Part shown: one piece after another, positions 38,096 through 56,309 of the stretch
How positions within the stretch are numbered: position 1 is the stretch's first letter
Layout: each line of letters begins with the position of its first letter
Origin: an uncultured Gemmatimonadota bacterium
GTDB lineage: Bacteria > Gemmatimonadota > Gemmatimonadetes > Longimicrobiales > Longimicrobiaceae
Reading direction: 5' to 3'
Length of the DNA: 64,000 bases
NCBI GenBank assembly: GCA_902805735.1
Contig: CADCTW010000133.1
Location: 62,001 to 126,000 of the forward strand
Program-made: the position numbers and the translations under genes
The notes under the pieces: generated by a model
What the model was told of the DNA's origin: nothing
Database searches by the model: none
Seen by the model: only the letters and a program-made list of their open reading frames with translations

Positions 38096-38197
38096 GCGAC
38101 TCCCTGCGTACGGCGTGCGGGGTCCCGCGCCCGACCCCGTCCGCGGCGGAGCGTCCGGTGGACGTGATCGTGGGTGGCGATGTTTTCTGTCGGACAC

Positions 38198-39535
38198 CCG
38201 GCCCCGGCCGACATCAAAAAGGACGGCAGCGCCTTCGACCTCCCCATCGCCATGGGCATCCTCGCCAGCACGGGGCAGATGCACTCCATCCAGCACCTGA
38301 AGCGCTTCATGCTCGTGGGCGAGCTGGGGCTGGACGGCGGCCTGCGGCCCGTGCGCGGCGCCCTCTCCATCGCCATCGCCGCGCGCGACGCGGGGCTCGC
38401 CGGGCTGATCCTCCCGGACGAAAACGTGGCCGAAGCAGCGGTGGTGGAAGGCGTCGAGGTGCGCGGCGCCCGCACGCTCCTCCAGGTCGTGCGCTTCCTG
38501 GAAGGCGCGGGCTCGCTCCCCGCCGCCAGCGTGGACCGCGAAGCCCTCTTCCGCACCGCATCCACCTACGACACGGACTTCGCGGACGTCCGCGGCCAGG
38601 AGCACGTGAAGCGGGCGCTGGAGGTCGCCGCGGCCGGAGCCCACAACATCCTCATGGTGGGGCCTCCCGGGTCGGGGAAGACGATGCTGGCGCGCCGCAT
38701 CCCGGGCATCCTCCCCCCGCTGACGCTGGAGGAGGCGCTGGAGACCACCAAGATCCACTCCGTCGCCGGGCTGCTCGGCAACGGCCGCTCGCTGGTCGCG
38801 ACCAGGCCGTTCCGCGCGCCGCACCACACGATCTCGGACGCGGGGCTGATCGGCGGCGGCTCCAACCCACGCCCCGGCGAGGTGTCGCTGGCGCACCACG
38901 GCGTCCTCTTTATGGACGAGCTTCCGGAGTTCCGCCGCAACGTCCTGGAGGTTCTTAGACAGCCACTCGAGGACCACGAGGTGTGCCTGGCCCGCGCCTC
39001 GATCTCCCTGACCTACCCCGCGAAGTTCATGTTGGCGGCCGCGATGAATCCGTGCCCGTGTGGCCATCACGGCGATGCCCAGCGGCACTGCACCTGCTCG
39101 CCGCAGGCGGTGCAGCGGTACATGGCCCGCGTCAGCGGCCCCCTTCTGGACCGCATCGACCTGCACGTGGAAGTCCCCGCCGTCCCGTTCCGCGAGCTGA
39201 CGGATGGGCGCGCGGGCGAGCCTTCGGAGGCCATCCGCGAGCGGGTGCGGCGCGCGAGGGAGGTGCAGCTCACCCGCTTCGCCAAGCGCCCGGACGTGCA
39301 CGCCAACGCCCACATGTCCCCGCGCGACCTCCACCACTTCTGCCGCATCGGCGAGGCCGGCGACGCGCTCCTCCGCACCGCCATCGCCCGCCTGGGCTTC
39401 TCCGCCCGCGCCTACCACCGTGTCCTCAAGATCGCCCGCACCATCGCCGACCTGGAGGGCGCGGCGGAGATCGGGACGGCGCACGTTTCGGAGGCGATCC
39501 AGTACCGCTCGCTGGATCGCGGGTCGGCGGGGTAG
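38198..39535 (+). pseudogene. comM: comM/yifB ATPase, 5'-truncated at island junction
   Basis: ComM (YifB, Mg-chelatase-family AAA+ ATPase) drives branch migration in natural transformation and is ~500 aa. Here family similarity begins abruptly at PAPADIKKDGSAFDLPIAMG, normally preceded by ~75 residues, so the first part of the Lon-like N-terminal domain is missing. The rest is complete: GPPGSGKTMLARRIPG (Walker A), GVLFMDELPEF (Walker B), MNPCPCG and the C-terminal domain to the stop. An ATG at 38174 opens the frame, but its first residues are not family-like. The missing 5' end presumably lies beyond the left edge of the window, with the defence island in between. Confidence 0.8.
39052..39535 (+). 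repeat. direct repeat copy 1 (comM 3' end)
   Basis: Last 484 bp of comM, repeated at 47159-47645 with a sharp left boundary at GTGCCCGTGTGG. By my count 14 differences in the first ~444 bp, 13 of them synonymous; the last ~25 bp diverge more. Confidence 0.9.
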
Positions 39536-39839
39536 AACCCGTGAGGAACAGCCTTGCTACGCCGGGCATGGTCGCGTTCAAGGAAATCGTCTCACGTCTC
39601 ACCATGTGCGTTTGACAACTTGAATACAAACGGTTACCGTCCACATCCTGACCTTTTGCGCCATTTGGCATTATGGCTGCCTGGCGATTCGCGCGAAGGG
39701 AAGCGGTGTTCGAAATCAGAAGATCTTTCGAGCGATCTCGCGGAGTTGTTCGTCCGCCGCGTCCTCTCGCCCTTTCGCTGACGCAAGGGCAGCGCGTCCC
39801 GCTCAACTCGGTTTCAGGCAGCTTTAGGAGTACCTCACG
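39536..39839. other. intergenic region after comM
   Basis: About 304 bp. A TTGACA at 39612 could be a -35 element, but no good -10 is placed at the right distance. No gene recognised. Confidence 0.3.
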
Positions 39840-41162
39840 TTGCAAAGCCCCTCCCGGTTCGTGCTCCTCCAGACCGTTTTCTTGGTCGTCATCGCGAGTT
39901 CGGCACGTGCGCCTCTGGCCGCTGTTGCGCAGTCGAGTGGCGAAGCATTCCCGCCTGCCGCTGTGTGCACAGTGCAGGAGCTCTCGCGGGAGCCGCTTGT
40001 GCTCGGCGAAGGGGCTCGTGTGTACGTGGAAGCGGACGCTTTCGTGGCGGATGCACGGGGCAATACGCTGCTGGCGGGTACGCCGAACAGCCTGACGCGC
40101 ATGAGCGCACAGGGCGCCGTCACAGCAGTGGTAGACGACAGCATACTGGGAGTCGTGATTCCCCGAAGCGGGCCCGCGCGCTCCATTCCGATTCCCGTCC
40201 CTGCCGGCGGGAAACTCGAGGGAGTCCGTGTTACCGCCCGTGCCAACGGCGGCTGGGCAGTGGGGTTCGCGGAGGTGAAGCCACGTCAGGGCAGTGAGAG
40301 CGCAGACTCGACCACTCGGCTCTGGTACGGGATCTATGACGGCGCGGAGTGGACGAGCCTCGAAGAATTGCCGATGCCGCCCTCAGGGGTTGTTGATGCG
40401 CGTTGGGCATCCTCACTAGTCAGCCGCGGAGACACGATCTCGTGGGCGATGACGCATCGCACCGCTTCCGGCCCGCAGATCGTGCTCTTTGAGCGGCGTC
40501 GCGATCACTGGTCGCATGAGTTGATACGGACCTTTCACTCGGAGGTGGAGCTCGGACACTCTGATGCGCTGGGCCTGATGCTGCTCGTGGTCCAGCCATA
40601 CAGCGGCCCTGGCGAGCGGTACGACGCCAATTCGCTCGTGCTCTGGTCTCGATACCCGGCGTGGCGTGCCGTCCGCCGGCTCGTCCACGGCTCCGTCGTC
40701 GGTCGCGTGTACCGCCCGAGGTTCGCTCCGTCATTCGGCGGAGATGTGCTCACCTGGGAGAGTCCGTCGACTTCACCGCGCCCGCGCGGGCTTGAGCTAC
40801 GCGCGCTGCTTGGCCGCTGGCAAGACAGCGCCGCTCAGCATGTAGCCCTGGATTCAGTCGTCTCCAGCATGCAGGGTTACTCCAACACCGTCAGCCTGCG
40901 GCGCGACTTGAGGCTGTGGGTTAGCATTCCCGTAGCCTCGGACCGGAGCCGCGCGGAACTCCGCTTCTTCGCCGATTCCGCGCGATCCGCTGTAGTGCTC
41001 GGCGCTGTTTCGAACCCATACGTGGGTTTCATCGCTGCGGCACCTACAAGCGCCGACACGGTGCTAGTCACAGGTTTGCGGTATGCCGAGAATCGTTACC
41101 TGGTCTCACTTCTCCTCCGGGCCAGAATCGACTGTCAAGATGGTCCGAACCCGCGCCGATGA
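39840..41162 (+). CDS. secreted ~440-aa paralogue A, function unknown
   Basis: A 440-aa protein with a signal peptide (FLVVIASSARAPLAAVAQ). Start TTG 39840 with AGGAG about 10 nt upstream. It shares with the proteins at 43864 and 48185 a set of segments: an early Cys, 'LLAG', 'LGVVIP..GPA', 'W.VGFAEVK', 'LWYGIYDGAEW', 'LLVVQP', 'SLVLWSR' and a C-terminal '(L)RARIDC'. The repeated short strands with Trp suggest a beta-propeller in the periplasm or on the surface. First gene after the intact comM 3' end. Family unknown to me. Confidence 0.7.
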   Translation: MQSPSRFVLLQTVFLVVIASSARAPLAAVAQSSGEAFPPAAVCTVQELSREPLVLGEGARVYVEADAFVADARGNTLLAGTPNSLTRMSAQGAVTAVVDDSILGVVIPRSGPARSIPIPVPAGGKLEGVRVTARANGGWAVGFAEVKPRQGSESADSTTRLWYGIYDGAEWTSLEELPMPPSGVVDARWASSLVSRGDTISWAMTHRTASGPQIVLFERRRDHWSHELIRTFHSEVELGHSDALGLMLLVVQPYSGPGERYDANSLVLWSRYPAWRAVRRLVHGSVVGRVYRPRFAPSFGGDVLTWESPSTSPRPRGLELRALLGRWQDSAAQHVALDSVVSSMQGYSNTVSLRRDLRLWVSIPVASDRSRAELRFFADSARSAVVLGAVSNPYVGFIAAAPTSADTVLVTGLRYAENRYLVSLLLRARIDCQDGPNPRR

Positions 41163-41208
41163 CGGCGCACGCCGCCTGGTTCAGTTCGGCGATGGGTGTT
41201 GAATGCGC

Positions 41209-41478
41209 TCAGCCTCCGTTGCCGGCGTATCCGCCGCCAGCGATGGCCGGTGACGTCACCGTTGTGGTAGAGTCGGTGCCTGCGGTCCCTTCGGCAGTCA
41301 CGCCGCTGGTACCTGTGGAGTCCGGCGTCACACTCCGGGCACCGTTGGCCATGTAGCCGCCGCCATTGAAGGCCGGGCGGGTAGTGCGAGCCTGCTGAAC
41401 ACTGGTTGGAGACTCAGCACAGCTCGTGGTAACGGCCGCAGCCATGAGGAGCGCGACGGGAAGACGCGTGCGAATCAT
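41209..41478 (-). CDS. small lipoprotein with repeated GGGY motifs
   Basis: An 89-aa protein: hydrophobic signal with lipobox TTSC at ~residue 19, then FNGGGYMANGARS, a Thr/Ser/Gly-rich linker and, at the very end, IAGGGYAGNGG. The twice-repeated GGGY-x-x-NG motif flanking a low-complexity linker looks like a precursor or surface peptide rather than an enzyme. RBS (GGAG) is present upstream of ATG 41478. Divergent from the AraC-type regulator with only ~79 bp between, so probably controlled by it. Unknown family. Confidence 0.6.
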   Translation of the reverse strand: MIRTRLPVALLMAAAVTTSCAESPTSVQQARTTRPAFNGGGYMANGARSVTPDSTGTSGVTAEGTAGTDSTTTVTSPAIAGGGYAGNGG

Positions 41479-41557
41479 GTGTACTCCGAGGATTGTGGGG
41501 ACTTGTGGACCGGGATCGTTCCCGGGGCGCCTGAATTATCAATTTTTCGGACAGGTC

Positions 41558-42394
41558 ATGCAATCGGAACTGTCTACTCTGTATCTCTTGCACGACGAGG
41601 CCACCTTGGCGGAAGCGCTTCGCCGCCAGGTGCGCTCCCGGTTTCGTGTCCAGCAGGTACGAGGATGGGAGGAGCCGCGCGACTCTCTCAGGCGCTGTTC
41701 GCCGGATGCAGTGTCCGTCGTAGCCCCTTACTTCGAGACGGATGACGGGAGCCCATCAATCCGGCTACGCCGCCTGCTCTTAGAGTTTCCCTCCTCGCCC
41801 GTGATCACGGCCTTTCGGGTGACGGAGGCGCGGCTGCGAGACATGCAGCTCTTGATGAGGTGGGGTGTAGCCGAGGTTCTGGACCTGAGTTGTGAGCTCA
41901 CCGGCCCCGCCTTGCTCCGCCGCTTGGAGGCGGTACGCGGGCATCGTATGCGGCTCGTCTTGGATAGGGCCCTGCCTCGTGTTATCCCGAGCCGAGCACG
42001 GGCACTCCTAGCGGACGCTGCAGAAGTTGTTGCTGTGGGCGGGAGAGCTCCTGAGCTTGCTGCGCGTCTGCAAACTGGCGAACGCACTCTAAATCGGTGG
42101 TGCAACAAAGTTGATCTGCCGGAGCCGCGGCGGCTACTTGCCTGGCTCCGGGTGCTACTTGCGGCCGACATGCTCTGCGAAGGTGATCGCCCTGTCGCGG
42201 CAGTCGCACGCGCCTGCGGGTATGCCTCGGATTCGAGCCTCAGAAACGCATTGCGGCTGGTGGCGAACACCACGCCGGCAGACGTGAAGGCCAAAGGGTT
42301 CCACGCTGTTGTGGCAGAACCCTTCGCCCACGAACTGGGAAAGCTTCGCGATCGAGGTGACGCCCGGTCGCGGGCCAGGTCGTACCTGAACTAA
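41558..42394 (+). CDS. pseudo-receiver/AraC-type transcriptional regulator
   Basis: About 278 aa from ATG 41558. Residues ~1-120 look like a receiver-like fold (RCSPDAVSVVAPYF, SSPVITAFRV, WGVAEVLDLS) without a clear phospho-acceptor set. The C-terminal ~90 residues carry an AraC/XylS HTH: LLAADMLCEGDRPVAAVARA then CGYASDSSLRNALRLV. Located between the GGGY lipoprotein (divergent) and the TPR-like gene. Probably regulates the surrounding secreted genes. Confidence 0.7.
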   Translation: MQSELSTLYLLHDEATLAEALRRQVRSRFRVQQVRGWEEPRDSLRRCSPDAVSVVAPYFETDDGSPSIRLRRLLLEFPSSPVITAFRVTEARLRDMQLLMRWGVAEVLDLSCELTGPALLRRLEAVRGHRMRLVLDRALPRVIPSRARALLADAAEVVAVGGRAPELAARLQTGERTLNRWCNKVDLPEPRRLLAWLRVLLAADMLCEGDRPVAAVARACGYASDSSLRNALRLVANTTPADVKAKGFHAVVAEPFAHELGKLRDRGDARSRARSYLN

Positions 42395-42478
42395 GAGCGC
42401 CAGCACGTACTACTCTCGCAGCTGTGCACTGCGTTTACCTGACAGGGCGTTTCGAGACGATACATGAGGGGTTCCTTG

Positions 42479-43652
42479 ATGATACAGAAGTCCCGCCCGG
42501 TGCGTCCCTGGCGTATTCCGCCGGCACTGCTGCGAGCTCCCGGCGAGTTGATAGACGGTGATTCAGTGCTGTCTGAGTTCACCGGTGCCACGGGACTGGT
42601 TCTCTGGCAAGGATTGCGTGACGCGATGCTCTGGGGGGTGACTCTACCCGAGAGGCGAAGTTCACTCTTTGTCCCGGGGGCAGGGAGTCGTCGCCAGCTG
42701 CTCACCGAGAGTGCGCCGAGTGGGATGCTGCCCGAGTCTATGGATGTCCTCTCCATGCTACTGCTGGCCCCGAGTGCGATGAACGCCGAGATGGTGAGTC
42801 GCTCGTGCCTCGCTGTCGCTCGTTGGGCCGAAGCTCAGGGCAAGCGGCGAACAGCCCTAGCATTTGCGCAAGCAGCTGCCGTCTGCGCTCCGGATCGCGC
42901 GGACGCAGCGCTCGAGACGGGGCGACTTGCTGTCGCTGCTGACGAGGACTCGCGGGCTGAAACATGGCTGCGCCGCACGATTGGGGTCGCCCGGCAATCT
43001 TGAGCGGCAGACATACGCCCGCGCATACCTAGAACTCGGGCTGCTTCGTGAGCGAGGGGGCGATCTTGCGGGAGCTCAGCGAGCCATGCTGCGCGCGGTT
43101 CGCACAGCCCGGCGTTACGGCCTGCGCGAAACACGCGGAGTTGCGGCACACGGACTCCTTCGCGTCTGCACAAAAATCGGCAGCTACCCTGAAGCTGAAT
43201 CCTGGGGCCGGGTGGCTGTGAGCAACTTAGGGCGAGAACACGCGCGCGCACCGGGGGTGCTGCGCGATGTAGCGCGGCTTCGCATTCAGAGCGGGGATGT
43301 ACACCGAGCGGTCGATACAGTCCAGAAGCTACTGCGGAGCGAGAACGACCCTGACGTGCGGATGAAACTCCTCGCCCTGTTAGCCCGTGCAGTTGCATCA
43401 CGTCGGGACCAGTTCGCCTTCCCTGGGGCGTGGTGGAATGCGTGGGAATTCGTCCGGGATCGATCACCCTGTGTTTCCCGCGACGACGCACTCGTGGACT
43501 TGGCGCACGCAGCGGCAGCAATGGAGGACCGCCCGCGGGCGCTGGGGCTAATCGGACTAATCTCAGGCCAAGGCGCTGCCGCGACAGCGGCCACGGCAGA
43601 CGCACTGGATCTCGCGCTCGCGCCTTTGGCATTAAGGGTAGCTCGCCGGTGA
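42479..43652 (+). pseudogene. TPR-like protein, frameshifted
   Basis: The first frame (ATG 42479 with GAGGGG upstream) encodes ~174 residues ending at 43003 in the middle of a TPR-like helical repeat (AETWLRRTIGVARQS). The protein continues naturally in the next frame (ERQTYARAYLELGLLRERGGDLAGAQRAMLRA…) to 43652. Removing one base between 42983 and 43001 (GGGG, CCC or TT) restores a ~390-aa TPR-like protein. Either disrupted or a sequencing slip. A truncated paralogue of its N-terminus lies at 47764, and members occur next to the secreted paralogues, suggesting a cytoplasmic scaffold or regulator for that family. Confidence 0.65.
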
Positions 43653-43863
43653 AGGTCTGTCCCTCTGGAGGCGGCAGTTGTATCCGCTGGCGCGGGCGAG
43701 ATTTTGGGACATTTGACACGCTGAGAAAGGGCGGATAACGTGCTTAGATCTCTGGTTGCGCGCGGCCTCAGCATTTCGAGGCTAGGCTTCCGAACTACAG
43801 TGTGGCTGGGCACCAGAGCGCCATCCAAAGCTTGCGCGTCCGAGTCTTTCTAGGAGAAGCCGC

Positions 43864-45165
43864 ATGGAGCGTCTGTCGATTCTTTGCCTTTGCGCACCGC
43901 TGACCGCGGCATTACTCCACGCCGCAAGCGCAAATACGTTGGAGAAAACGCCGGAGACGCGGGTGCAAGAGATTCGAACGGATAGCGCGCGCCGCTGTAC
44001 CGCAAGCATCGTCTCACAGGAAAGGCTCAGTGTAACTGGCGGCCACGAGATCTACGTTGAGCCTGTGACACTCGCGGCAGTTGGTGGTGACGTCTTATTA
44101 GCAGGGTCACCTGCCTTCCTGTGGGACACCACAAAGACGGACGACGCGCGCCGACAGCAAAACCGTCGGATACTTGGGGTTGTGATCCACCATGACGGGC
44201 ACAACACGATCGTTCCCTCTCCGATCGACGCGAAGCTGATCCTCGGCATCAGGGCCGTCGGAATTCAGAACAACACGTGGGCGGTTGTCTTTGCAGAGTC
44301 GAAGCCCTGGGTGGGCAGTACGCCGCCGGACACCGCAGATCGCGTATGGTTCGGAGTTTATAATGGCTCGCGCTGGAGCACGCTAGAGCAAATTCCGCTT
44401 CCGCATGGGGTACGTGTACACCCGCTGCGAGGGTCGGGGCTTGTGAGACAGGGCGACACACTGTTTTGGGCAGTGCGAACCACCACTGAAGCTCGCGCTT
44501 CGGAGGTGGTGGTGTTCCGCAGGGAAGGTGCGCGATGGTTTTCTGATACCGTGCCAACGCGCGATGCAACTGATCTTGCGCTGGCGTACTCTGGTTCTCT
44601 CGGGGCGGTCCTGGCAGTCGTTCAACCAGATACTTCGGTGACGGAAGATAACGGCTCATTGTATTTGTACGCTCGGCAGGCGCGGTGGATGGCCCTCCGC
44701 CGAGTTGTCTCTGGTGAGAAAGACGCCACGTACGCACCGACTCTGAGATTCACGCGCACACACGGGGTGTTGAGTTGGTCGGCGCTGACCCAAACTCGCT
44801 CAAGAGTTCGTCGCGAGTCGCGTGCTGCCACTCTGGATGCGGCGGCCCAGCCACAGAGTCGCTTTACCGTGGATCCGCAGATATTGGATGTCTCGATTCC
44901 CGTGGAGTCCAGCGGTAGTACACACCTTTGGATCACTGATCACGCTGGGGGAGACGGCACCCGACAAGAGCTTCGCTTCGTTGCTGGATTCGATGCAGTC
45001 ACATCGACGGTTGGCGTACTCCCGAACCCCTATGCAGGGTATTTCGGTGCTGTATCTGCCCTGCCTGGCCATGTGATCATCGCCGGACCAATCATTGATC
45101 GCACGCAACGTAGAGTTCTCTCGCTCGTGATACGCGCCAGGGTTGTATGTGGTGCGCTGCATTAG
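43864..45165 (+). CDS. secreted ~433-aa paralogue B, function unknown
   Basis: A 433-aa exported protein (signal LCAPLTAALLHAASA), AGGAGA site before ATG 43864. Diverged paralogue of 39840 and 48185, sharing 'LGVVIH', 'WAVVFAESK', 'VWFGVYNGSRW', 'LAVVQPD' and the C-terminal 'IRARVVC'. It is less GC-rich than neighbouring DNA. Follows the frameshifted TPR-like gene and precedes a lipoprotein. Unknown function. Confidence 0.7.
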   Translation: MERLSILCLCAPLTAALLHAASANTLEKTPETRVQEIRTDSARRCTASIVSQERLSVTGGHEIYVEPVTLAAVGGDVLLAGSPAFLWDTTKTDDARRQQNRRILGVVIHHDGHNTIVPSPIDAKLILGIRAVGIQNNTWAVVFAESKPWVGSTPPDTADRVWFGVYNGSRWSTLEQIPLPHGVRVHPLRGSGLVRQGDTLFWAVRTTTEARASEVVVFRREGARWFSDTVPTRDATDLALAYSGSLGAVLAVVQPDTSVTEDNGSLYLYARQARWMALRRVVSGEKDATYAPTLRFTRTHGVLSWSALTQTRSRVRRESRAATLDAAAQPQSRFTVDPQILDVSIPVESSGSTHLWITDHAGGDGTRQELRFVAGFDAVTSTVGVLPNPYAGYFGAVSALPGHVIIAGPIIDRTQRRVLSLVIRARVVCGALH

Positions 45166-45233
45166 GGAGAGAAAGGAAAGGTGCGACCTCGACCGAAGTC
45201 GCACGTTTGCCCCCGCACAACAGGAGCGTGAGT

Positions 45234-46016
45234 ATGCGGAATCTGCTGCGACGATTGACAATTCTTGTCGTTGCGATTTCCTCCGTGGGCTGCACCGACA
45301 CGGTGGGCTCGCCCGGGCCGAGCGTCAGACCGACTCTTTCGTCCTCCCCACCGGAGGGTGCGCCGCCGGAGTTCAGCACCATACCGATCATTTTCGACAC
45401 CTGGCTGGACGTCGGCTTTCTGACCAGCAACCCGCGGGCGTACGCCGGGGGGAGCATGAACTTCTGGGGGTCGCACGGCAAGGTGGACGTTACGCTCACC
45501 GTGCGGGAAGGCAGCTCTGTGGTGGAAACGAGAACCACAAATGCGGAGGACTTTCGATATTACCCGTGGCGCCGAACCCTGTTCAACCATGGCAACACAC
45601 TCTCCCTGGGAGCGACGTGCGGCCATACCGCGAGTGGGTACGCGAGCTTCTCCGCTTGGCACGAGTACCTCGGTGACACTTGGGGCCGAACCACTGTTCC
45701 GGTTACCAAGTCGAAGCGGCAGGGGGAGTGTACTTCGTGCACTGGAAGTCTCGTCGTCGAGTACGACCCCTATGCCGAGGGTCCGGAGGAAGGTGATTGC
45801 GGCGGGGACGACGGTAGCGGATCGGGAGAAGGATCAGGTACCCAGTTCTCTCCTGGAGACTCTACGGGTGGAGAGACAGTCGACTGGAGCACTGGGAAAG
45901 GAAACGGGGGATCGAGTCAGTGTGGCCAGGACGCAGTGGTCGAGTACGTCTGCATTGACTTCATGACCGAAGAAGGATGGAAGGAGTGGAGCTGCGGATA
46001 CGTCACAACCTGCTAA
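45234..46016 (+). CDS. lipoprotein with Gly/Ser/Asp-rich tail, unknown
   Basis: A 260-aa protein from ATG 45234 with lipobox SSVGC at ~residue 20. The first part after a Pro/Ser linker is beta-rich with Trp; later CTSCTG and a Gly/Ser/Glu/Asp-rich stretch (GDDGSGSGEGSGTQF) precede a C-terminal Cys-containing segment ending VTTC. Five or six Cys suggest disulfides after export. Between paralogue B and the next small exported protein. No family recognised. Confidence 0.6.
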   Translation: MRNLLRRLTILVVAISSVGCTDTVGSPGPSVRPTLSSSPPEGAPPEFSTIPIIFDTWLDVGFLTSNPRAYAGGSMNFWGSHGKVDVTLTVREGSSVVETRTTNAEDFRYYPWRRTLFNHGNTLSLGATCGHTASGYASFSAWHEYLGDTWGRTTVPVTKSKRQGECTSCTGSLVVEYDPYAEGPEEGDCGGDDGSGSGEGSGTQFSPGDSTGGETVDWSTGKGNGGSSQCGQDAVVEYVCIDFMTEEGWKEWSCGYVTTC

Positions 46017-46033
46017 CACCTCGGGAGATACCT

Positions 46034-46501
46034 ATGATGAAGATGACAACTACCCTCATTGCAAGCGTGCTCGTGCTGATCTCCACAGTCCCGGCAACGG
46101 CACAACAGCAGCGTAGCAACACCTCGCCACTACGGGTGCCAACCATGGTTGTGCTGGTCGATTCGATCCAGCAACCGGATGCTCCTTACGTGATCGTGCG
46201 CCGTCCTGGCAGAGCGCCGGCTGATCTGATCCTCTTGCGGTCGGGAGCTGGCCCCAACGAGTTCTCCGACGCGGTGCGGGGTCTCCTCACGGCGCGGTTC
46301 GCTGACGGTGACATCGCGCGCACCGCGGCTACGTTCCGTGTGAGGCCAAATCGCCCGAACGCAACTCCCCGGGCCGCATTCCCGTGGGCCCCGCGCGTGG
46401 TAAATGACCTGCGCCGGGCTCAGTTACGTGAGATGCATGGGCTCGGCCGCGTCCGGGCCGTGCAGATCTGGCTACCCGCGCAAGGAGCCGGGGAGGGCTA
46501 A
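46034..46501 (+). CDS. small exported protein, unknown
   Basis: A 155-aa protein with a clear signal peptide (LIASVLVLISTVPATAQQQ). The mature part is beta-strand/helix mixed and Arg-rich (TFRVRPNRPNATPR). Same strand and 17 bp after the lipoprotein gene, likely one operon. Function unknown. Confidence 0.6.
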   Translation: MMKMTTTLIASVLVLISTVPATAQQQRSNTSPLRVPTMVVLVDSIQQPDAPYVIVRRPGRAPADLILLRSGAGPNEFSDAVRGLLTARFADGDIARTAATFRVRPNRPNATPRAAFPWAPRVVNDLRRAQLREMHGLGRVRAVQIWLPAQGAGEG

Positions 46502-46689
46502 GCCGCGTAGGTAATCGTCCCGTGCTTGAGCCCTGAAACGCCCACAGGGACAAGCGTGATACGTAGCGGCAATCCGTAGCAATTTCGGTCTGTATTTCGC
46601 AATGCGGTACTTGGGCGCCCTGGACGGGCTGAGTACGACTGGATGGCATGGGCTCGTCACGACACGCGGAAGCGGTGTACAGGAAAAGA

Positions 46690-46712
46690 GGCCGGCGGAA
46701 ATTCCGCCGGCC
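46690..46712 (-). terminator. rho-independent terminator of XRE gene
   Basis: 10-bp perfect stem (46690-46699 with 46703-46712), 3-nt loop; on the minus strand it is followed by CTCTTTTCC. Lies 20 bp after the stop of the minus-strand XRE gene. Confidence 0.75.
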
Positions 46713-46730
46713 TTGCGCCGTTACGCTGCC

Positions 46731-47141
46731 TTAATGGTTTCGACAGAACGCCTCCAGCAAGAGTGTGCTGCGCGTGTTCGGCTGAGTGTCACCTGCTTCC
46801 CAGGCCTGCAGAGACCCTTCGTCCGTACCAAGCTGGGAAGCTAATTCCTCCTGTGTCAGTCCGAGCTCCCGCCTCCGCCGGGCCACCTGCTGGCCCAGTG
46901 TGGCACCCTCCGGCTCCGGGTTGTATCCGAGCCAGGCGATCAGCTTCGGCCAGACCCTCAGATCGGGGAAGTTCCGCCCTCGCTCCCAGTTGTTCACGCT
47001 GGACATAGACACATCGAACCGTTCGGCAAGCTGCCGTTGGGTCAGTTGGTGATCGAGCCTCCCCTTTCTGATGTGATCTCCCACCGTGGCGAGCTCCTGT
47101 GGATAGAAGGTTGGGCGTTTTCGCGGTGAGCACCAGACCAC
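46731..47141 (-). CDS. double XRE helix-turn-helix regulator
   Basis: About 136 aa from a GTG near 47141 (the frame reads on through the comM repeat to 47657, which is only a shadow). Two HTH units: IRKGRLDHQLTQRQLAERFD…VNNWERGR and QVARRRRELGLTQEELASQL…LQAWEAGD. Both belong to the XRE class. Its 5' end lies next to the comM repeat boundary at 47158, so the natural N-terminus or promoter may have been lost. Probably a repressor carried with this duplicated segment. Confidence 0.7.
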   Translation of the reverse strand: MVWCSPRKRPTFYPQELATVGDHIRKGRLDHQLTQRQLAERFDVSMSSVNNWERGRNFPDLRVWPKLIAWLGYNPEPEGATLGQQVARRRRELGLTQEELASQLGTDEGSLQAWEAGDTQPNTRSTLLLEAFCRNH

Positions 47142-47158
47142 ATTAGGGCAACGCAGGG

Positions 47159-47645
47159 GTGCCCGTGTGGCCATCACGGCGATGCCCAGCGGCACTGCAC
47201 CTGCTCGCCGCAGGCGGTGCAGCGGTACATGGCCCGCGTCAGCGGCCCCCTCCTGGACCGCATCGACCTGCACGTGGAAGTTCCCGCCGTTCCCTTCCGC
47301 GAGCTGACGGATGGGCGCGCGGGCGAGCCCTCGGAGGCCATCCGCGAGCGGGTGCGGCGCGCGAGAGAGGTGCAGCTCACCCGCTTCGCCAAGCGCCCGG
47401 ACGTGCACGCCAACGCCCACATGTCCCCGCGCGACCTCCACCACTTCTGCCGCATCGGCGAGGCGGGCGACGCGCTCCTGCGCACCGCCATCGCCCGCCT
47501 GGGCTTCTCCGTCCGCGCCTACCACCGCGTCCTCAAGATTGCCCGCACCATCGCCGACCTCGAGGGCGCGGCGGAGATCGGGACGGCGCACGTGTCGGAA
47601 GCGATCCAGTACCGCTCGCTGGACCGAGGGGCAGCTGGACAATAG
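47159..47645 (+). pseudogene. comM 3'-end fragment (direct repeat copy 2)
   Basis: Repeat of 39052-39535: starts sharply at GTGCCCGTG within the family motif NPCPCG and runs to the comM stop with one extra codon (Gln). No start codon or N-terminal domain, so not functional alone. Nearly all differences from copy 1 are synonymous, i.e. the two copies evolved under protein-level selection, as if from two working comM genes. Confidence 0.9.
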
Positions 47646-47763
47646 CGCACCCAACAACCTGTCCGAAAAAATACATATCTATTTGTATCTTTTCTCGCAC
47701 GCTCACTCCGTCTATCTTCCGGCGTGAAAGGGAGAGAGGGGTGCGCGAGATGGTTCACGAGGG

Positions 47764-48024
47764 ATGCGGATGGAAACCAGCTATGAGTTCGCGACAGTCA
47801 CGCGGATCTCTGACAAATCCCGATCCTGCTACTTGGCGGCGCCTCCGCTTCTGCGTTCGGATGAAAACGTCGAGGGAGGCGGGATCATCGATGAGCTACC
47901 CGCACAGATCGGCCTCCTGCTATGGAGGTCATTCCGCATGGTGATGCGATGGGCGAGTGAGCCAGAGAGCCGCGCAGAAGCCTTTGACGCGAGTCTTAAG
48001 AAGCAGCGCGAAGCACATGCTTGA
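47764..48024 (+). pseudogene. N-terminal remnant of TPR-like paralogue
   Basis: An 86-aa frame whose middle (LLRSDENVEGGGIIDELPAQ IGLLLWRSFR) aligns with the start of the gene at 42479 (LLRAPGELIDGDSVLSEFTG ATGLVLWQGLR). The TPR part is absent. It sits before paralogue C, as the intact-length copy sits before paralogue B. Confidence 0.55.
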
Positions 48025-48184
48025 GTGCCGCCGTCCGGGCTGATGTGCCTACCTATTGATCAAGTGAGCGGTACACATCCCGACAAACATTCCGACACCA
48101 CGGGCCCCTCGCGGTGAACCAACTGATCGGATGCATTCTGTGGGGCGGCGACAATCGTAGGTGACCACCAACGACAGCACCCTA

Positions 48185-49489
48185 ATGAGACTGATACGCC
48201 GAGTGTCGAGGAATCCCGTGTCTATCGTGCTCTTCGCGAGCTTATTGGCGCTCGCCGGGTGTGCGCACACCCACGTCGCGGGTTCCCCCGTGATGCCCGG
48301 CACCACGCCCCAGTGCACGATTGCTGAGGTGTCTCGCGGGAAACTCCTGGACCCTCGCGGACGCCAGGTCTACATCCAACCGGTTGTGGCGGTGCCGAAC
48401 AGACGCGGCGAGCTACTCCTCGCGGGCGAGCGTAACTACGTGTTCGGCAGAGAGGGCGGCGGGCAATGGACGAGGGCGACCGAGGATAGCCTGCTGGGCG
48501 CGATCGTCCCCACGGCCGGCCCGGCGCAACTCGTCCGTTCGCCGATCCCCACCCAGTTCCTTGGGAGTGTCCGCGCGGTCGCGCGAGACGACGGAACTTG
48601 GTCCGTTGTATTCGCGGAACTGAAGCACGCGGGCGCGGAGCGTTCAGACTCAGTCGCGAGACTCTGGTACGGAGTCCTCGATGGGTCGCGCTGGGCTACT
48701 CTGGAGGTGATACCGGTTCCGCCACATGGGTCAATTCGAAGGGTTGGCGCGTCGGCTCCGGTGGAGACGAGTGATTTGTTCTCGTGGGCTGTGATCCTCT
48801 CTACCGCGGAACATCCCGGTGACGTACTAGTCCTCCAGCGTAAACAGGGTCGTTGGTCGCATGAAGTCGTCCCGACGGTGTTCGCCTCCTATGCTGCGAT
48901 CGCGTACCCACCCGGGTCGGAACCCCTCCTCGCCGTCGTTCAGCCAGATCTGGAGTTACCGAGTGACGGGAACTCGCTATTCCTCTGGACCCGGCAACCT
49001 AGTTGGACGAGAGCGGCCAAGCTGGTGGCGAGCCAGGAAGAAGCGGTCCACGACCCTCGTGTCGACTTCTCGGGAACGACAGGTACGCTGAGCTGGCTCG
49101 GTGATCGGGGCAGAAATGGTCAGCATGCCAGGACTATGGGCGGCACACCGTACGGGTTTGCGGGGCCAATTGTCACCCTCGACCTGGCGGTTGCACGTGG
49201 TAGTCGGCAGTCGACGGTGACGTTACGTGATGTCGGTCGCGTGTGGGTACTTGACCATCGTGGACAAAACGGGCTGAGCCACGAGATACGGTTCGTGGGG
49301 AGATCTGGTGACCAAGCCATGGCACTCGGAACATTGACGCACGCATTCCTGGGCGCGTTCGTCGCGGCCTCTCCACGTTTGGCGGAAATCATCCTCGCCG
49401 GAGGAGTTCAAGATTCACCGGGAAGCGCCGTGGCTACACTTGTGATCCGCACCCGAGTGCGCTGTTTGGCGCGATTCCGCTGGCGCTGA
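48185..49489 (+). CDS. lipoprotein paralogue C (~434 aa), function unknown
   Basis: A 434-aa protein from ATG 48185 (GTG 48161 is less likely) with lipobox LALAGC. Shares with the genes at 39840 and 43864 the segments 'LLAG', 'LGAIVPTAGPAQLVRSPIP', 'WSVVFAELK', 'ARLWYGVLDGSRW', 'LLAVVQPD', 'NSLFLWTRQ' and a terminal 'IRTRVRC'. Unlike A, its N-terminus is a lipoprotein signal. Probably a beta-propeller in the envelope. Unknown function. Confidence 0.7.
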   Translation: MRLIRRVSRNPVSIVLFASLLALAGCAHTHVAGSPVMPGTTPQCTIAEVSRGKLLDPRGRQVYIQPVVAVPNRRGELLLAGERNYVFGREGGGQWTRATEDSLLGAIVPTAGPAQLVRSPIPTQFLGSVRAVARDDGTWSVVFAELKHAGAERSDSVARLWYGVLDGSRWATLEVIPVPPHGSIRRVGASAPVETSDLFSWAVILSTAEHPGDVLVLQRKQGRWSHEVVPTVFASYAAIAYPPGSEPLLAVVQPDLELPSDGNSLFLWTRQPSWTRAAKLVASQEEAVHDPRVDFSGTTGTLSWLGDRGRNGQHARTMGGTPYGFAGPIVTLDLAVARGSRQSTVTLRDVGRVWVLDHRGQNGLSHEIRFVGRSGDQAMALGTLTHAFLGAFVAASPRLAEIILAGGVQDSPGSAVATLVIRTRVRCLARFRWR

Positions 49490-49572
49490 TACGGTGCACC
49501 GCGGATGCGGTGTGGAGCGAAAAGCGGGTTGAGGAGCTCGGGCGAGCCCTCAACCCGCTGCCGTTGTACGCG

Positions 49573-49986
49573 CTACCGATCGTGCTCGGCTGGCTGCTGG
49601 GCGGCGTCGCCCGCGATCAACTCGATGACACCACCGGCAACGACGCCGAGCCCTGCGCCGAGCGCGGTCCACGGCACCCGGCTGATCCAGCAGTCGTTGC
49701 AATCGTAGGTGAGTCCGAAGTACGTGCCTCCCACGATCCCGCCGAGCACCGGAAGCAGCCATGGCGGCCGTCGGCTATCGAGCGGTCCGGGGAACGCGGC
49801 AGAACGCAGATACGCTTCCTCCTGCCGTGAAGGCCACCGGCCCGCCCAGAGCTGCGATGAATCCGCGGGCAGCAGTAGAGAGCCTGCAGATGGTACTCGC
49901 GGTGTTTCAGCGCTGGTGGATTGTCCGGACGCGGTAGAGGACAACAGCACCAGAACGCACACCGACAGGATGCACAGAGATCGCAT
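49573..49986 (-). CDS. small exported membrane-associated protein, unknown
   Basis: A 137-aa protein from ATG 49986: signal peptide (LCILSVCVLVLLSSTASGQ), a middle region with two Cys (YDCNDCWIS), and two Gly-rich hydrophobic segments (LLPVLGGIVGGTYFG, ALGAGLGVVAGGVIELI) resembling glycine-zipper helices. No family recognised. Confidence 0.55.
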   Translation of the reverse strand: MRSLCILSVCVLVLLSSTASGQSTSAETPRVPSAGSLLLPADSSQLWAGRWPSRQEEAYLRSAAFPGPLDSRRPPWLLPVLGGIVGGTYFGLTYDCNDCWISRVPWTALGAGLGVVAGGVIELIAGDAAQQPAEHDR

Positions 49987-50199
49987 GTCATGCTCGAAGA
50001 TGGTTTGCGCGATGCTGCGTCCGAACCTACTCGTGTACAGTACGTTCAATTGTCCACGCCATGTCAGTTTGTCTCATTCTGGCGGTTGAAATGTCCCAGC
50101 GGGAGACGAGCCCTTACGCCGTCACCTCCTGTGTTTTCCTGCCCTTCGGCTTGGCGACGAGGCGGAGGCCGAGTCCCCCTCCAGGAGGCGGTGCTGACC

Positions 50200-50415
50200 C
50201 CGGAGTTCAGCGCGATGGGGCATGCGGTAGCTGTTGCCGCGGATCTTGACGATCTGGTAGTGATGCAGGAGCCGGTCGTCAGCGCGGCCGCCACGCCTCG
50301 TCGCCAAAGATCTCGCCCCACTCCTCGTAGCCCCTGTTGCTGGTCGGCACGGTGGAGGCGTGCTCGTACCTGCGGCTCATAGGCTGGAAGAAGAGCATGG
50401 CCCTGGTGCGTGAGA
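50200..50415 (-). pseudogene. IS21-family istB remnant
   Basis: Two frames together match the C-terminal half of IstB, the ATPase helper of IS21: SRRYEHASTVPTSNRGYEEW and IFGDEA in one frame, then DRLLHHYQIVKIRGNSYRMP in another. A frameshift near 50285 and missing N-terminus and partner transposase show it is dead. Confidence 0.7.
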
Positions 50416-50581
50416 CGGGCGGCTGCGGGCTTGCCAAACTCTTGCGAGGTGCGGGGTCCGCAGGCCCACTGGAGTCGCCGATCGTGCGACACGCGTGCGG
50501 CCCCCCCCCGAGCGCCGCTCCTTTCACCTGCGAGTTGAGCTTCACGGCCGCGCCCCCGCACGCGGCCTGGTCGGGGAGAGT

Positions 50582-50833
50582 TCATGCGGCGCCCAAACTC
50601 AGGCGCGGCAGCGTTGCGCCGAACTCCTCTGCGAGATGGCTCGCCCAGCGGAGTTGCTGCTCGAGCAGAGCGCGGCTCGGGGACTCGATGACGCGGTGCG
50701 CGATGAACTCGGCGGGATCATCCTCCGGCTCGTAGTCCTCGTCAGGAGAGGCATGCCAGCCCGGCGCGGCGAGCACCCGCTTCGTGAGCGAGCGGCGCCT
50801 CGCCTCGTCCTCGATGCGCCAGCCCACCTGCAA
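50582..50833 (-). CDS. small acidic protein, uncertain
   Basis: An 83-aa frame with an acidic middle (SPDEDYEPEDDPAEF) and a helical end. No family or clear ribosome-binding site. Could be real but is weakly supported. Confidence 0.25.
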   Translation of the reverse strand: MQVGWRIEDEARRRSLTKRVLAAPGWHASPDEDYEPEDDPAEFIAHRVIESPSRALLEQQLRWASHLAEEFGATLPRLSLGAA

Positions 50834-50943
50834 GCGGAGCCGGCGAGTCCAGCCCTGCTGCTGGGCGGTGCGTCATTGCGAGGAAAGCTGTCCCTGGAGA
50901 TTCTGGTTGCTCACGTGTGGTATCTAACGCAGCCGCCGAGCGC

Positions 50944-51615
50944 TTACGCTGAGTTGCGCGGAGCGTCAGCTCCAACGCGATGTTCGGGGGCGGATGCCCT
51001 CCGCTGCCGCCAGGGCGCATACACCAGGGCGCCAAGAAACACCGCCAGGGCAAGCATCCAGCGGCGGCGCACCTTCTGGGGCAAGCTTCGGTCTCGAAGC
51101 AGAACAATCCAGCTCGAGATCCACAGCAGCAGGAAGAGCGCCCGTCCCCCCCAGGCCACGATGCCTGGCGGGGCATCGTGGCCGAATGCGTCGAGGAAAC
51201 GCGCTCCCACAGTATGGGGCCAAAGTACCGCGAGCAGGCCAAATGTGAAGTAGATGACGTTCGCCGCGGCCAGGAACGCCCCCATCGTCGCGTATACGGC
51301 GTTCAGCAGGCGGATGCGACCGCCCTGGTCAGGTGCATGGCTGCGCAGAGAGATGGCCGTCAGCATCCAACCGCCGACCGAGCCCAGTCCGCCGAGCAAG
51401 AACCCGGACCGGCGGCTGCGGCCGACGCGAGTGGCGATCTTGGCCCCGATCCAGCCAGAGACTGCCACACTTGGAACGAGGATTAGACAAACGAGGATAA
51501 ATGCAGCCACGGTCGATAGCGGATAGTCATAGCGGCGAAAGGTTTGAGCCAGGCTGCGGCGCGCAGTTCGGCAGACTAATGTCGCCGCGCCGAAAGCAAT
51601 CCGTGAGCGCGGCAT
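50944..51615 (-). CDS. integral membrane protein, function unknown
   Basis: About 223 aa from ATG 51615. Four to five hydrophobic segments (STVAAFILVCLILVPSVAV, SGFLLGGLGSVGGWMLTAI, AFLAAANVIYFTFGLLAVLW, GGRALFLLLWISSWIVLL, WMLALAVFLGALVYA). Basic loops between them suggest a small inner-membrane protein. No family recognised. Divergent from the thermonuclease gene. Confidence 0.55.
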   Translation of the reverse strand: MPRSRIAFGAATLVCRTARRSLAQTFRRYDYPLSTVAAFILVCLILVPSVAVSGWIGAKIATRVGRSRRSGFLLGGLGSVGGWMLTAISLRSHAPDQGGRIRLLNAVYATMGAFLAAANVIYFTFGLLAVLWPHTVGARFLDAFGHDAPPGIVAWGGRALFLLLWISSWIVLLRDRSLPQKVRRRWMLALAVFLGALVYAPWRQRRASAPEHRVGADAPRNSA

Positions 51616-51744
51616 CTCGGGCGGTAACCTCGCCAACCGAGAGCAGAAGATCGAGGAAAAGGTCCGGTTGGCATGGCTGGCCCGGCTGTTGCCGCCGCGT
51701 GGAGGGGCCAACGCCATCCTCCTCCACCTCGAGACTCCACGCTC

Positions 51745-52380
51745 ATGCCCCGACGGAGACGGCGAAGCCGCCTCGCGATCGTCCCGCTCGTGGTCCTTCT
51801 GATCTCGCTGTGGTTGGCGGAGCGCAGCGCTTCGGGACCTGAACCTCGCCCCGATCAGGGTGCCCAGCCGCGTACTCCAGCGGAGTCGCCGCGCGAGCGG
51901 CCAAGCAAAGTGGAGCCCCCCAGTCGTGCGCCGGCGCGGGGGCTTCCCTGCACGGTAGACGCCGTGCCGGACGGCGACACCCTCCGGTGCACCGATGGGA
52001 CGCGCGTTCGGCTCCTCTCCATCGACACGCCAGAACTCGCGCAGAAGCCGCACGGCGCCAGCGCGCGCGACGCGCTCAGGGCGGTTGCCGGGCGCGGAAC
52101 GCGCCTCACACTCGAGACCGACGTGCGCGAGAGGGACCGATACGGGCGGATCCTCGCCTATGCCTACGACTCAGACGGCCGGATGCTCAACGAGGAGATG
52201 GCGCGGGCCGGATACGCGGTGGCGCTCGTCTACCCTCCAAATGTGCGGCATGAGGCGCGGATCCGCGCCGCGGTCGCGGAAGCCCGCGCGCAGGGCCGCG
52301 GCCTCTGGGCAACGGATGGCTTCGTATGCGCGCCCAGGGACTACCGTGCCGGGCGGTGCAGTGGGAAAGGGCGCCGCTAA
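51745..52380 (+). CDS. exported thermonuclease (SNase family)
   Basis: A 211-aa protein from ATG 51745: Arg-rich n-region and hydrophobic signal/anchor (LAIVPLVVLLISLWLAE), a Pro/Arg linker, then the staphylococcal-nuclease fold: VPDGDTLRC, VRLLSIDTPEL, DRYGRILAYAY, LNEEMARAGYA, with the catalytic Arg/Asp/Glu positions conserved, and a Cys pair near the end. Degrades DNA/RNA outside the cytoplasm, for scavenging or surface defence. Followed by a strong terminator. Confidence 0.85.
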   Translation: MPRRRRRSRLAIVPLVVLLISLWLAERSASGPEPRPDQGAQPRTPAESPRERPSKVEPPSRAPARGLPCTVDAVPDGDTLRCTDGTRVRLLSIDTPELAQKPHGASARDALRAVAGRGTRLTLETDVRERDRYGRILAYAYDSDGRMLNEEMARAGYAVALVYPPNVRHEARIRAAVAEARAQGRGLWATDGFVCAPRDYRAGRCSGKGRR

Positions 52381-52466
52381 ACAGCCTCGCACGGCCGAGT
52401 CGCACGTGTTCCCATGGGCCCGGCTGACCCGTCGGCCCGCAGGCAGCCTTTCCCCTGGCCGACGCA

Positions 52467-52492
52467 GGCGCCCCCGCACTCGCGGGGGCGCC
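52467..52492. terminator. hairpin terminator between convergent genes
   Basis: Perfect 11-bp stem (52467-52477 with 52482-52492) and tetraloop between the thermonuclease and the convergent amidase gene. Confidence 0.65.
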
Positions 52493-52503
52493 TTCGTGCC
52501 GCC

Positions 52504-54066
52504 CTACAGTGGCGGTGTGGTGGGCGGCGGGCGGCGGTGCCGGGTCGCCTGCTCGTACGCGTACCCGATCTGGATCAGCACCGGCTCGGTCCAGGCGTCT
52601 CCCAAGATCTGGAGCCCCACGGGCAGGCTACCCTGCACGTAGCCCATGGGTACCGAGACGGCGGGGAAGCCCGTGGGAGGCGAGAGTTGCCAGCTGTTGT
52701 TGCCGTGGGGGGTGTTCAGGTCGCCGATCAGGCGGGGCGGGTTGCTCCAGGTCGGGTACACGAGCGCGTCGAGCCGATTGGACGAGAGCACGGCGCGCAC
52801 CCCGGCCCGCAGCTTGGGTACGTTCGCGGCCGCCTCGCGGCACGACTTGTCCTCTTCCGGCGAGGTGAAGCGCTGGAACTCGCGCAGGCGTCCGGCGATG
52901 GAAGGGTGGAACTTCCCGGACGCCACGATCTCGTCCAGGGTCTTCACCGGCGCACGCGGCCCCAGGCTCGCCAGGTACGCGTTGATGTCGGTCTTGAAGC
53001 GCCCGCACCAGAGCGATCCCTGGATGGTGTCCATCTCCGGGATCTGCACGTCCACCACTTCCGCGCCCTGTCCGCGCATCGTGCGCAGTGCCTCCTCGAA
53101 GCGGGCCAGCACCCCGCTGTCCGTGGTGGCGGTGTTCGAGAGCTGCCGCACCACCCCGATCCGCTTGCCGCGCAGGCCGTCCCTGCGCAGGTGCGCAGCG
53201 TACCCCCCGGTGGCCACGCGCCCCCGGCTCTCCGCCGTCACGGGGTCGGCGGGGTCGGGGCCGGCGATGACGTCCAGCACCCGCACGGCGTCCGCCATCG
53301 TGCGCGCCATGGGCCCGCCCACGTCGCGGTCCAGGTACAGGGGGATGATCCCGTCGCGGCTGGTGAGCCCCATGGTGGAGCGGATCCCCACCAGCGCCAG
53401 GTGCGCGGCGGGCCCGCGGATGGAGTTGCCCGTGTCGGTGCCCAGTCCCACCACGCCCAGGCTCGCCGCCACCGCGGCGGCCGTGCCCCCGCTGGAGCCC
53501 GCGGTGCCGCGGGCGAGGTCGTACGGGTTGCGGGTGTAGCCCGGGAGCATCGATCCCACGGTCTCGAAAGGCGTGAAGGCGAACTCCGCCATGTTGCTCT
53601 TCGCCAGGATGATGGCCCCCGCTTCTCGCAGGCGGCGCACCTGGAAGGCGTCGTCCGGGGGCACGGAGCCGGCCAGCGCCAGCGACCCCGCGGTCGTGGG
53701 CAGATCCCGGGTGTCGTAGTTGTCCTTGACGATCACCGGGATGCCGTGGAGCGGCCCCGTCAACCTCCCCGTCCGCCGGTACTGCCGGTCCAGCGAATCC
53801 GCCACCGCCAGCGCGTCCGGGTTGATGGTGATCAGCGAGTTCAGGTACGGGCCCCGCCGATCGTACGCGTCGATGCGGGCCAGGTGCGCCGCCACCAGCG
53901 CCCGCGACGTCAGGCGTCCCTCGCGGAACGCCCGATGGATGGTCTCGATCGTGGCCTCGCGGACCTCGAATCGCGCTGTCTGGGCCGCCAGCATGGCCGC
54001 GCAGCCGGGAAGAGCCAGAAGAGCCAGGGCGAGAGTCCCCACCCACCTGCGAAACCGAAATCCCAT
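52504..54066 (-). CDS. exported amidase (amidase-signature family)
   Basis: About 520 aa from ATG 54066 with GGGGCAG upstream; a lipobox-like LLALPGC ends the signal peptide. Amidase-signature catalytic triad: Lys in IPVIVKDNYD, the Ser/cis-Ser-rich GTAGSSGGTAAAVAASL and the nucleophile region GTDTGNSIRGPAAHL (usual GG-S-I reads GN-S-I). Hydrolyses carboxamides; substrate unknown. The open frame upstream belongs to an amidohydrolase remnant, not to this gene. Confidence 0.85.
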   Translation of the reverse strand: MGFRFRRWVGTLALALLALPGCAAMLAAQTARFEVREATIETIHRAFREGRLTSRALVAAHLARIDAYDRRGPYLNSLITINPDALAVADSLDRQYRRTGRLTGPLHGIPVIVKDNYDTRDLPTTAGSLALAGSVPPDDAFQVRRLREAGAIILAKSNMAEFAFTPFETVGSMLPGYTRNPYDLARGTAGSSGGTAAAVAASLGVVGLGTDTGNSIRGPAAHLALVGIRSTMGLTSRDGIIPLYLDRDVGGPMARTMADAVRVLDVIAGPDPADPVTAESRGRVATGGYAAHLRRDGLRGKRIGVVRQLSNTATTDSGVLARFEEALRTMRGQGAEVVDVQIPEMDTIQGSLWCGRFKTDINAYLASLGPRAPVKTLDEIVASGKFHPSIAGRLREFQRFTSPEEDKSCREAAANVPKLRAGVRAVLSSNRLDALVYPTWSNPPRLIGDLNTPHGNNSWQLSPPTGFPAVSVPMGYVQGSLPVGLQILGDAWTEPVLIQIGYAYEQATRHRRPPPTTPPL

Positions 54067-54119
54067 TCTGCCCCTTGAATTTGAAGACGCTCCGCACCTC
54101 AGCGGTACTCCAGTTGCCG

Positions 54120-54246
54120 GCGAGTCCAAGCCACGCACCATGGTCGACAGGCCGCGCACGTTCGCGATGCTGGTGAGAGGGTTCTCGTTCAGCAGCACCA
54201 CCTGGCGGGCGATCCGCCCCGGCTCAATCACACCGATGCCGTTCCG
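54120..54246 (-). pseudogene. amidohydrolase C-terminal remnant
   Basis: Translates to VIEPGRIARQVVLLNENPLT SIANVRGL (two pieces), the C-terminal signature of metal-dependent amidohydrolases (imidazolonepropionase-like). Only ~40 codons remain, in frame just upstream of the amidase. Confidence 0.55.
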
Positions 54247-54334
54247 CCCCGTTGCGGGTACCCGGCGCCAGCATCTGGATCTCCTCCGCCTTGCGGACGC
54301 ACGCCTGGCGCGCCCGGAGCAGCACGGGGAACCC

Positions 54335-55666: not shown

Positions 55667-55775
55667 ATGCCAGGAGGTGCAGGGGAGATCGGGACGGTTC
55701 GATAGTAATACGTAGGCGAGAGAGGCGACGCAAACCGCGCCGCGTCTCGCGGGGCCACCGGCAGCCGTAACAGGG

Positions 55776-55935
55776 GCACTACGAGCCGGGGGGGGAGATC
55801 TACCAGGCGCGGGCGCGCTGGTACGATCCGCATTCGGGACGCTGCCCCTCCGAGGACCCGATCGGATCGGTGGGGACCATCAACCCGTACGCCTCCGCTG
55901 GCAATCATCCCGTCAACCAGATTGACTCCATGGCG
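55776..55935 (+). pseudogene. RHS-repeat core remnant
   Basis: Translates to HYEPGGEIYQARARWYDPHS, then GRCPSEDPIGSVGTINPYAS and AGNHPVNQIDS, the conserved core that ends RHS/YD-repeat proteins before the variable toxin tip. Nothing else of the ~1000+ aa protein is present, so this is a leftover of an RHS gene or its displaced tip cassette. The rest of 55667-56309 holds no recognisable gene. Confidence 0.7.
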
Positions 55936-56309
55936 ATCTACCGTGACGAGCGGCATCACGACGTTGGGCGGGCGACCGGATACGGGCGCCGATGCCCCGA
56001 ACGATGGGCGCGCGGCTCAGACGGCCGGTGCCGTTCAGGCCTCCCGCTACGTCCCCCTTTGCATCCTGGACGCACCCGGTCATCAGCGTCGGACAACCCG
56101 AAGCGGAGTCGTCGTGATCGTGCGACAAACGCGCGCCGCGGGGCCAAGCGGGAGCGGGTGCGCGCTCTCCTCCCACGCACCCCAGAGTCCCCGCCGCACA
56201 GGCACACAACGTTACAGAGAGCCGCCTTGGGCTCCGGCCCGCATTTTGATGTTCCCGGACGCCAGAGGATCCGCAGGCGCGGATCGCGGGCACCCGGACA
56301 GGACCGCTC

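Follow-up and report, generated by a model that had tools for sequence, protein, structure and literature searches.

A recurrent cassette of three predicted envelope protein families, here called P, L and S, is found in several families of one class of Gemmatimonadota. Judged from its sequences, this cassette is real and undescribed, and it matches no described family. In the window (the whole stretch of 64,000 nucleotides that was analysed), it is represented by the gene set P2-L-S, and two further P genes, P1 and P3, lie nearby. Our preferred reading, which we put forward tentatively, is that P2-L-S is an operon for an undescribed envelope binding complex and that P1 and P3 are orphan propeller copies.

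Organization of the locus

The genes concerned occupy positions 39,840 to 49,489 of the window and the edges of the surrounding interval:

38180-39535, plus strand: comM (Mg-chelatase-like ATPase), left edge of the variable interval; 5′ end missing compared with relatives
39840-41162, plus strand: P1, orphan exported protein of the predicted β-propeller family; TTG start, signal peptide
41209-41478, minus strand: small lipoprotein-like open reading frame with GGGY repeats, annotated by reading alone
41558-42394, plus strand: AraC-type regulator whose C-terminus matches HTH_18; its family has several copies in the genome
42464-43652, plus strand: TPR-family gene with a frameshift near 43000; this family is multi-copy too
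43864-45165, plus strand: P2, exported predicted β-propeller (AlphaFold2 model, Foldseek, profile), first in the P-L-S cassette
45234-46016, plus strand: L, predicted lipoprotein with a VGC lipobox, a Gly/Ser-rich linker and a C-terminal two-Cys tail, putatively a hairpin (profile E-value 5e-46)
46034-46501, plus strand: S, small exported α/β protein, as predicted (profile E-value 1e-40)
46731-47207, minus strand: tandem XRE-type HTH protein, start uncertain, with no conserved link to the cassette
47159-47638, plus strand: second copy of the comM 3′ end (about codons 288-451 of the query reading frame)
47841-48027, plus strand: TPR-family gene remnant upstream of P3, recognized by sequence similarity
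48161-49489, plus strand: P3, orphan lipoprotein of the predicted β-propeller family with an LAGC lipobox and 48185 as the more likely start
56310-56954, plus strand: signal peptidase II gene, called lspA-like from a reading of its sequence; forms the right edge of the variable interval

An earlier note on this DNA had described three secreted paralogues of ~435 amino acids. The reading frames of P1, P2 and P3 indeed encode 440, 433 and 442 amino acids, and the proteins are homologous far beyond chance, with pairwise tblastn E-values of about 1e-46 to 1e-54 and with P2 and P3 being 31 and 34% identical to P1. The ordered motifs that it named, including the terminal RxRxxC, are common to all three, and the neighbours that it listed (AraC-type regulator, TPR gene and remnant, small lipoprotein-like reading frame, duplicated comM end) are all present. 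P1-P3 are the only P copies in the 5.79-Mb genome, which is 86% complete and comprises 254 contigs. Within the cassette the genes are closely spaced, with gaps of 68 bp between P2 and L and of 17 bp between L and S. The XRE-type protein, encoded on the minus strand, has two tandem HTH domains and adjoins the comM repeat.

The AraC and TPR genes

The same note had cast the TPR and AraC genes as specific partners of the P proteins. The AraC-type regulator matches HTH_18 in Pfam with an E-value of 1e-14; a receiver-like N-terminus, which had also been suggested, found no Pfam or PDB support outside the HTH region. The frameshift in the TPR gene is evident against an intact paralogue, and the remnant before P3 retains 49% identity over 51 amino acids. 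In the window's genome, 15 places match the TPR family and seven the AraC family, among mixed neighbours. At some of these places the two are paired, sometimes together with a small lipoprotein-like gene. Such low-complexity reading frames recurrently adjoin AraC/TPR genes (L043 7263-7535, L120 3007-3363 and 41209-41478 in the window), and in L043 and L120 those resembling the window's copy sit between the TPR and AraC genes.

The whole block from 39.8 to 49.5 kb could accordingly be taken as one envelope locus under AraC/TPR control, as the genes adjoin in the window's genome and AraC and/or TPR genes lie near some L-S loci (L120, L125, L127). However, both families are multi-copy with many other neighbours, the TPR gene is frameshifted, and P-L-S loci elsewhere come without AraC and TPR genes. 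We regard a single locus of this kind as highly improbable. In relatives neither family was seen beside P; its conserved companions are instead L and S. The AraC/TPR genes are best regarded as a module of their own that came to lie in this interval.

The P family

Ordinary signal peptides are recognized on P1 and P2, and a lipobox (LAGC) on P3, by eye and with a simple pattern. Other family members show the same mix, in agreement with the envelope location proposed at the outset. The family is also undescribed, as had been claimed: P gave no match in Pfam, NCBIfam or PDB-sequence searches.

The β-propeller, initially a guess, was recovered by structure prediction. The AlphaFold2 model of P2, which rests on five sequences (P2 and four homologues), is a closed all-β propeller of about 28 strands (pLDDT 78.4, pTM 0.81), and its poorly modelled part is mainly the signal region. 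With this model Foldseek returned 307 PDB matches at E ≤ 0.001, the best of which are β-propellers. The best global similarity is to BT3686 (5mul; TM-scores 0.55/0.62), with CylK at 0.57; at ~10% identity and medium TM-scores, these neighbours serve for fold assignment only. A search of a viral library added only distant propellers. Profile comparison provides a further connection. Three propellers from the loci L113, L114 and L123 match Pfam BNR_2 (PF13088) with E-values between 2e-7 and 2e-4 that do not reach the curated cut-off, and P aligns with these proteins over the full length at an hhalign probability of 98.9%. All three adjoin L-type genes and two of them S genes too. Direct Pfam scans of P itself gave no BNR_2 match, and the link is an indirect one through these three proteins. 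By AlphaFold2 and Foldseek, the predicted fold of P is a β-propeller, possibly of the BNR/sialidase type to which profile comparison points, and the strand count suggests seven blades.

The likeness to such propellers (BNR_2; BT3686) consists in the fold and in the full-length alignment with BNR_2-matching proteins from a shared gene context. P differs in lacking a BNR_2 match of its own, a strict Asp box and conserved catalytic-type residues, and in having an invariant terminal Cys pair. Cys45 and Cys429 (P2 numbering) are invariant among 26 homologues, and these conserved columns point to a disulfide that would join the ends of the protein and close the ring. The other invariant or near-invariant columns are Gly, Pro, Trp and one Tyr; Tyr64 (92%), near the N-terminus, is the sole strongly conserved polar column. 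The strict Asp box S/T-x-D-x-G-x-T-W is absent from the five P sequences checked, which contain only degenerate xDGSRW-like hairpins.

This conservation pattern bears on whether P could be a propeller enzyme that acts on polymers outside the cell, such as a glycoside hydrolase, a polysaccharide lyase or one of their relatives; the lipoprotein L would then bind the substrate. The Foldseek neighbours do include sialidases, the glycoside hydrolase BT3686, the PL24 lyase LOR107 and the enzyme CylK, and the remote BNR_2 link would fit as well. However, no Arg, Asp, Glu or His column exceeds 80% conservation in the 26 homologues, which do not show the conserved Arg triad and catalytic Asp/Tyr/Glu of sialidases, and L has no significant carbohydrate-binding Pfam match. 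An enzymatic P is, in our judgement, quite unlikely. With no conserved polar residues of the sialidase kind, P probably lacks enzymatic activity and serves as a platform for binding.

The P-L-S cassette

When the neighbourhoods of P in relatives were read across loci, L came first after P and S next. Searched with iterative profiles, 23 neighbourhoods gave strong E-values for L, and 23 did so for S. In six-frame translations, the P, L and S profiles match side by side on the same strand at 24 loci, one of which is P2-L-S of the window, and these loci span several families of the class; the order is P-L-S at 22 of them and L-S-P at two, and two further loci end at the contig edge after L. The three are not obligate partners, because L-S pairs also occur without P and P occurs without L-S (P1 and P3 in the window; L058, L094, L095 and L110). 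No family was found for L or S in Pfam, NCBIfam and PDB-sequence searches, and a search of a literature collection for the cassette returned no relevant paper.

Alignment of the L proteins showed four conserved cysteines. A C-terminal tail with two Cys is present in all 22 aligned L proteins and in 17 of the 635 further proteins encoded at these loci, a contrast to be read in the light of a tail pattern written after L was seen and of a background which may hold unrecognised L-type or P proteins. A tail-bearing L-type gene precedes S in nearly every case, even without P, as established partly by reading. At L101 (6464-7477), a single open frame spans both L and S; it is possibly a natural fusion, seen once and in a draft genome. 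The tails of two L-type proteins, L121 5493-6140 and L122 5578-6129, contain the Asp-box-like sequences SYDNGVTW and SYDGGITW, which fit the BNR propeller motif.

In many S proteins (e.g. that at 46034-46501 of the window), Gln seems to be the first residue behind the predicted signal peptide (AxA|Q). This start recalls the Q-rule described for Bacteroidetes (PMC10653852). The AlphaFold2 model of S has a pLDDT of 67 and gave no confident fold match in Foldseek. An ExbD/TolR-like domain, suggested by a βα pattern, was rejected: hhalign against 30 ExbD proteins of the same clade gave 0.1%, and Foldseek did not return it either.

In the window's own genus S is commoner than P, and a third small family, M, often lies upstream of L-S pairs. 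M precedes pairs that lack P, sometimes has a lipobox and shows the motif LERLLSxVxPExR (L117 4380-4775, L119 1502-1933, L120 6975-7346, L121 6236-6553 and L122 6242-6616). The member from L117, searched against Pfam, had no match.

The recurrence of the tail can be explained in another manner: the tail could serve for sorting or anchoring, with S as the protein that processes or anchors it. S would then deliver L-type proteins of diverse fronts to the surface, and P would be a co-encoded cargo or surface receptor. The N-terminal regions of L-type proteins are diverse while the tail recurs after a Gly-rich linker with S nearly always next, and the companion of L-S can be P, a BNR-like propeller or M, an unrelated small lipoprotein. 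On the other hand, the tails vary strongly among subgroups and are without known sorting-motif features, and nearly every L has its own S beside it rather than one shared machine. We consider this explanation unlikely.

Distribution, evolution and selection

P was detected in 30 of 394 genomes of the class and in 36 of 395 sampled genomes of the phylum (~9%). Its occurrence is sparse and extends over several families, and all matches fall within the window's own class. A scan of contigs from all bacteria with short conserved P patterns, which reaches only fairly close relatives, yielded one further contig, from Gemmatimonadetes; plasmids and phages gave no match. A BamB-type lipoprotein is a lipid-anchored propeller in the envelope. 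A likeness to P would concern the lipobox-bearing members such as P3, and P differs in having no PDB sequence match and in being so sparse, unlike a housekeeping assembly factor.

The repeated local duplication proposed for the three P genes was not borne out by phylogeny. P1, P2 and P3 form no supported clade, although a three-gene clade is not rejected by the AU test (p = 0.09). P2 tended to join a homologue from another genus in one tree, and a second tree leaves the core unresolved.

The diversifying selection suggested alongside finds no support in the closest pairs. Between the two related genomes G005 and G006, the P genes have a dN/dS of 0.27, and the comM-lspA locus gives 0.13 for its L-type gene and 0.20 for its S gene; in more distant pairs the ratio is also below 1, with partial saturation. 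The values for G005 and G006 indicate purifying selection on the P, L-type and S genes, which evolve somewhat faster than most neighbours. These values also weigh on an antagonistic role for L and S, in which L variants would be envelope-displayed effectors, S the cognate immunity protein, and P would help target binding. Variable front domains, tight L-S pairing and a variable genomic interval are what such a module would display. Yet selection in the closest pairs is purifying, the variable end is N-terminal, unlike in polymorphic toxins, no toxin-domain match was obtained for the cassette proteins, and in PADLOC no anti-phage defence model was matched by P, L or S. We regard antagonism as an improbable function.

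The comM-lspA interval

The P genes of the window lie between comM and an lspA-like gene, 16.8 kb apart (39535-56310). The comM gene before P1 is 91% identical to those of G005 and G006, whose products extend further at the N-terminus, and it is also 5′-shortened compared with that of G009. Its last 480 bp (39052-39531) are repeated at 47159-47638 with 96% identity. In G001 and G004, fragments of comM beginning at about codon 288/289 were noticed on separate contigs, and an additional fragment lies between comM and lspA in G006.

In G004, G005, G006, G007 and G009, the gene that comes after comM or a comM fragment is 64-80% identical to the window's lspA-like gene. The distance between the two is 0.7 kb in G004, where comM is broken, ~4.5 kb in G007, ~5.4 kb in G005 and G006 and ~9.8 kb in G009. 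The content varies likewise, with M-L-S in G005 and G006 and metabolic genes in G009. In the window, the G+C content of the block is 0.63 vs 0.70 in the flanks, and no transposase or recombinase was noticed in the interval. Because size and content vary among relatives, the G+C content of the block is low and a comM repeat lies within it, the interval is recognized as a variable region in the genus, in which the cassette family appears to have been placed more than once.

In Acinetobacter, AbaR-type islands sit at comM. The likeness lies in comM bordering variable DNA and in the comM fragments left behind. The window differs in that no transposase was noticed and in that the variable DNA is mostly downstream of comM, up to lspA.

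A model for the cassette

In the operon model that we tentatively prefer, P2-L-S (43864-46501) would encode a cell-envelope complex. P would be exported, either secreted or lipid-anchored, as a seven-bladed BNR-type propeller with its ring closed by the invariant Cys pair. Having lost, or never had, catalytic residues, it would bind a glycan, peptide or protein as a platform. The lipoprotein L would present a disulfide-clamped β-hairpin at the tip of a flexible Gly-rich tether. S, small and periplasmic or secreted, would be dedicated to L, most simply as a tail-binding partner or chaperone. Together, the three may constitute a module for recognition or assembly that is tethered at the outer membrane, and a putative surface recognition role of the P locus is possible.

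A wider version of this model is conceivable, if rather doubtful. L-S would be a modular two-protein envelope system across Gemmatimonadota, in which S captures the clamped C-terminal hairpin of interchangeable lipoproteins or exported proteins, and the propeller P or the helical lipoprotein M is plugged in beside.

Three families without a Pfam model recur as what is predicted to be one operon, in a phylum in which the cell envelope has hardly been studied. S and L-type proteins are more widespread than P in the window's own genus. The definition of the cassette supplies profiles for annotators and a small testable system for experimenters. If the L tail binds S, the pair would represent a new way to assemble or display envelope proteins.
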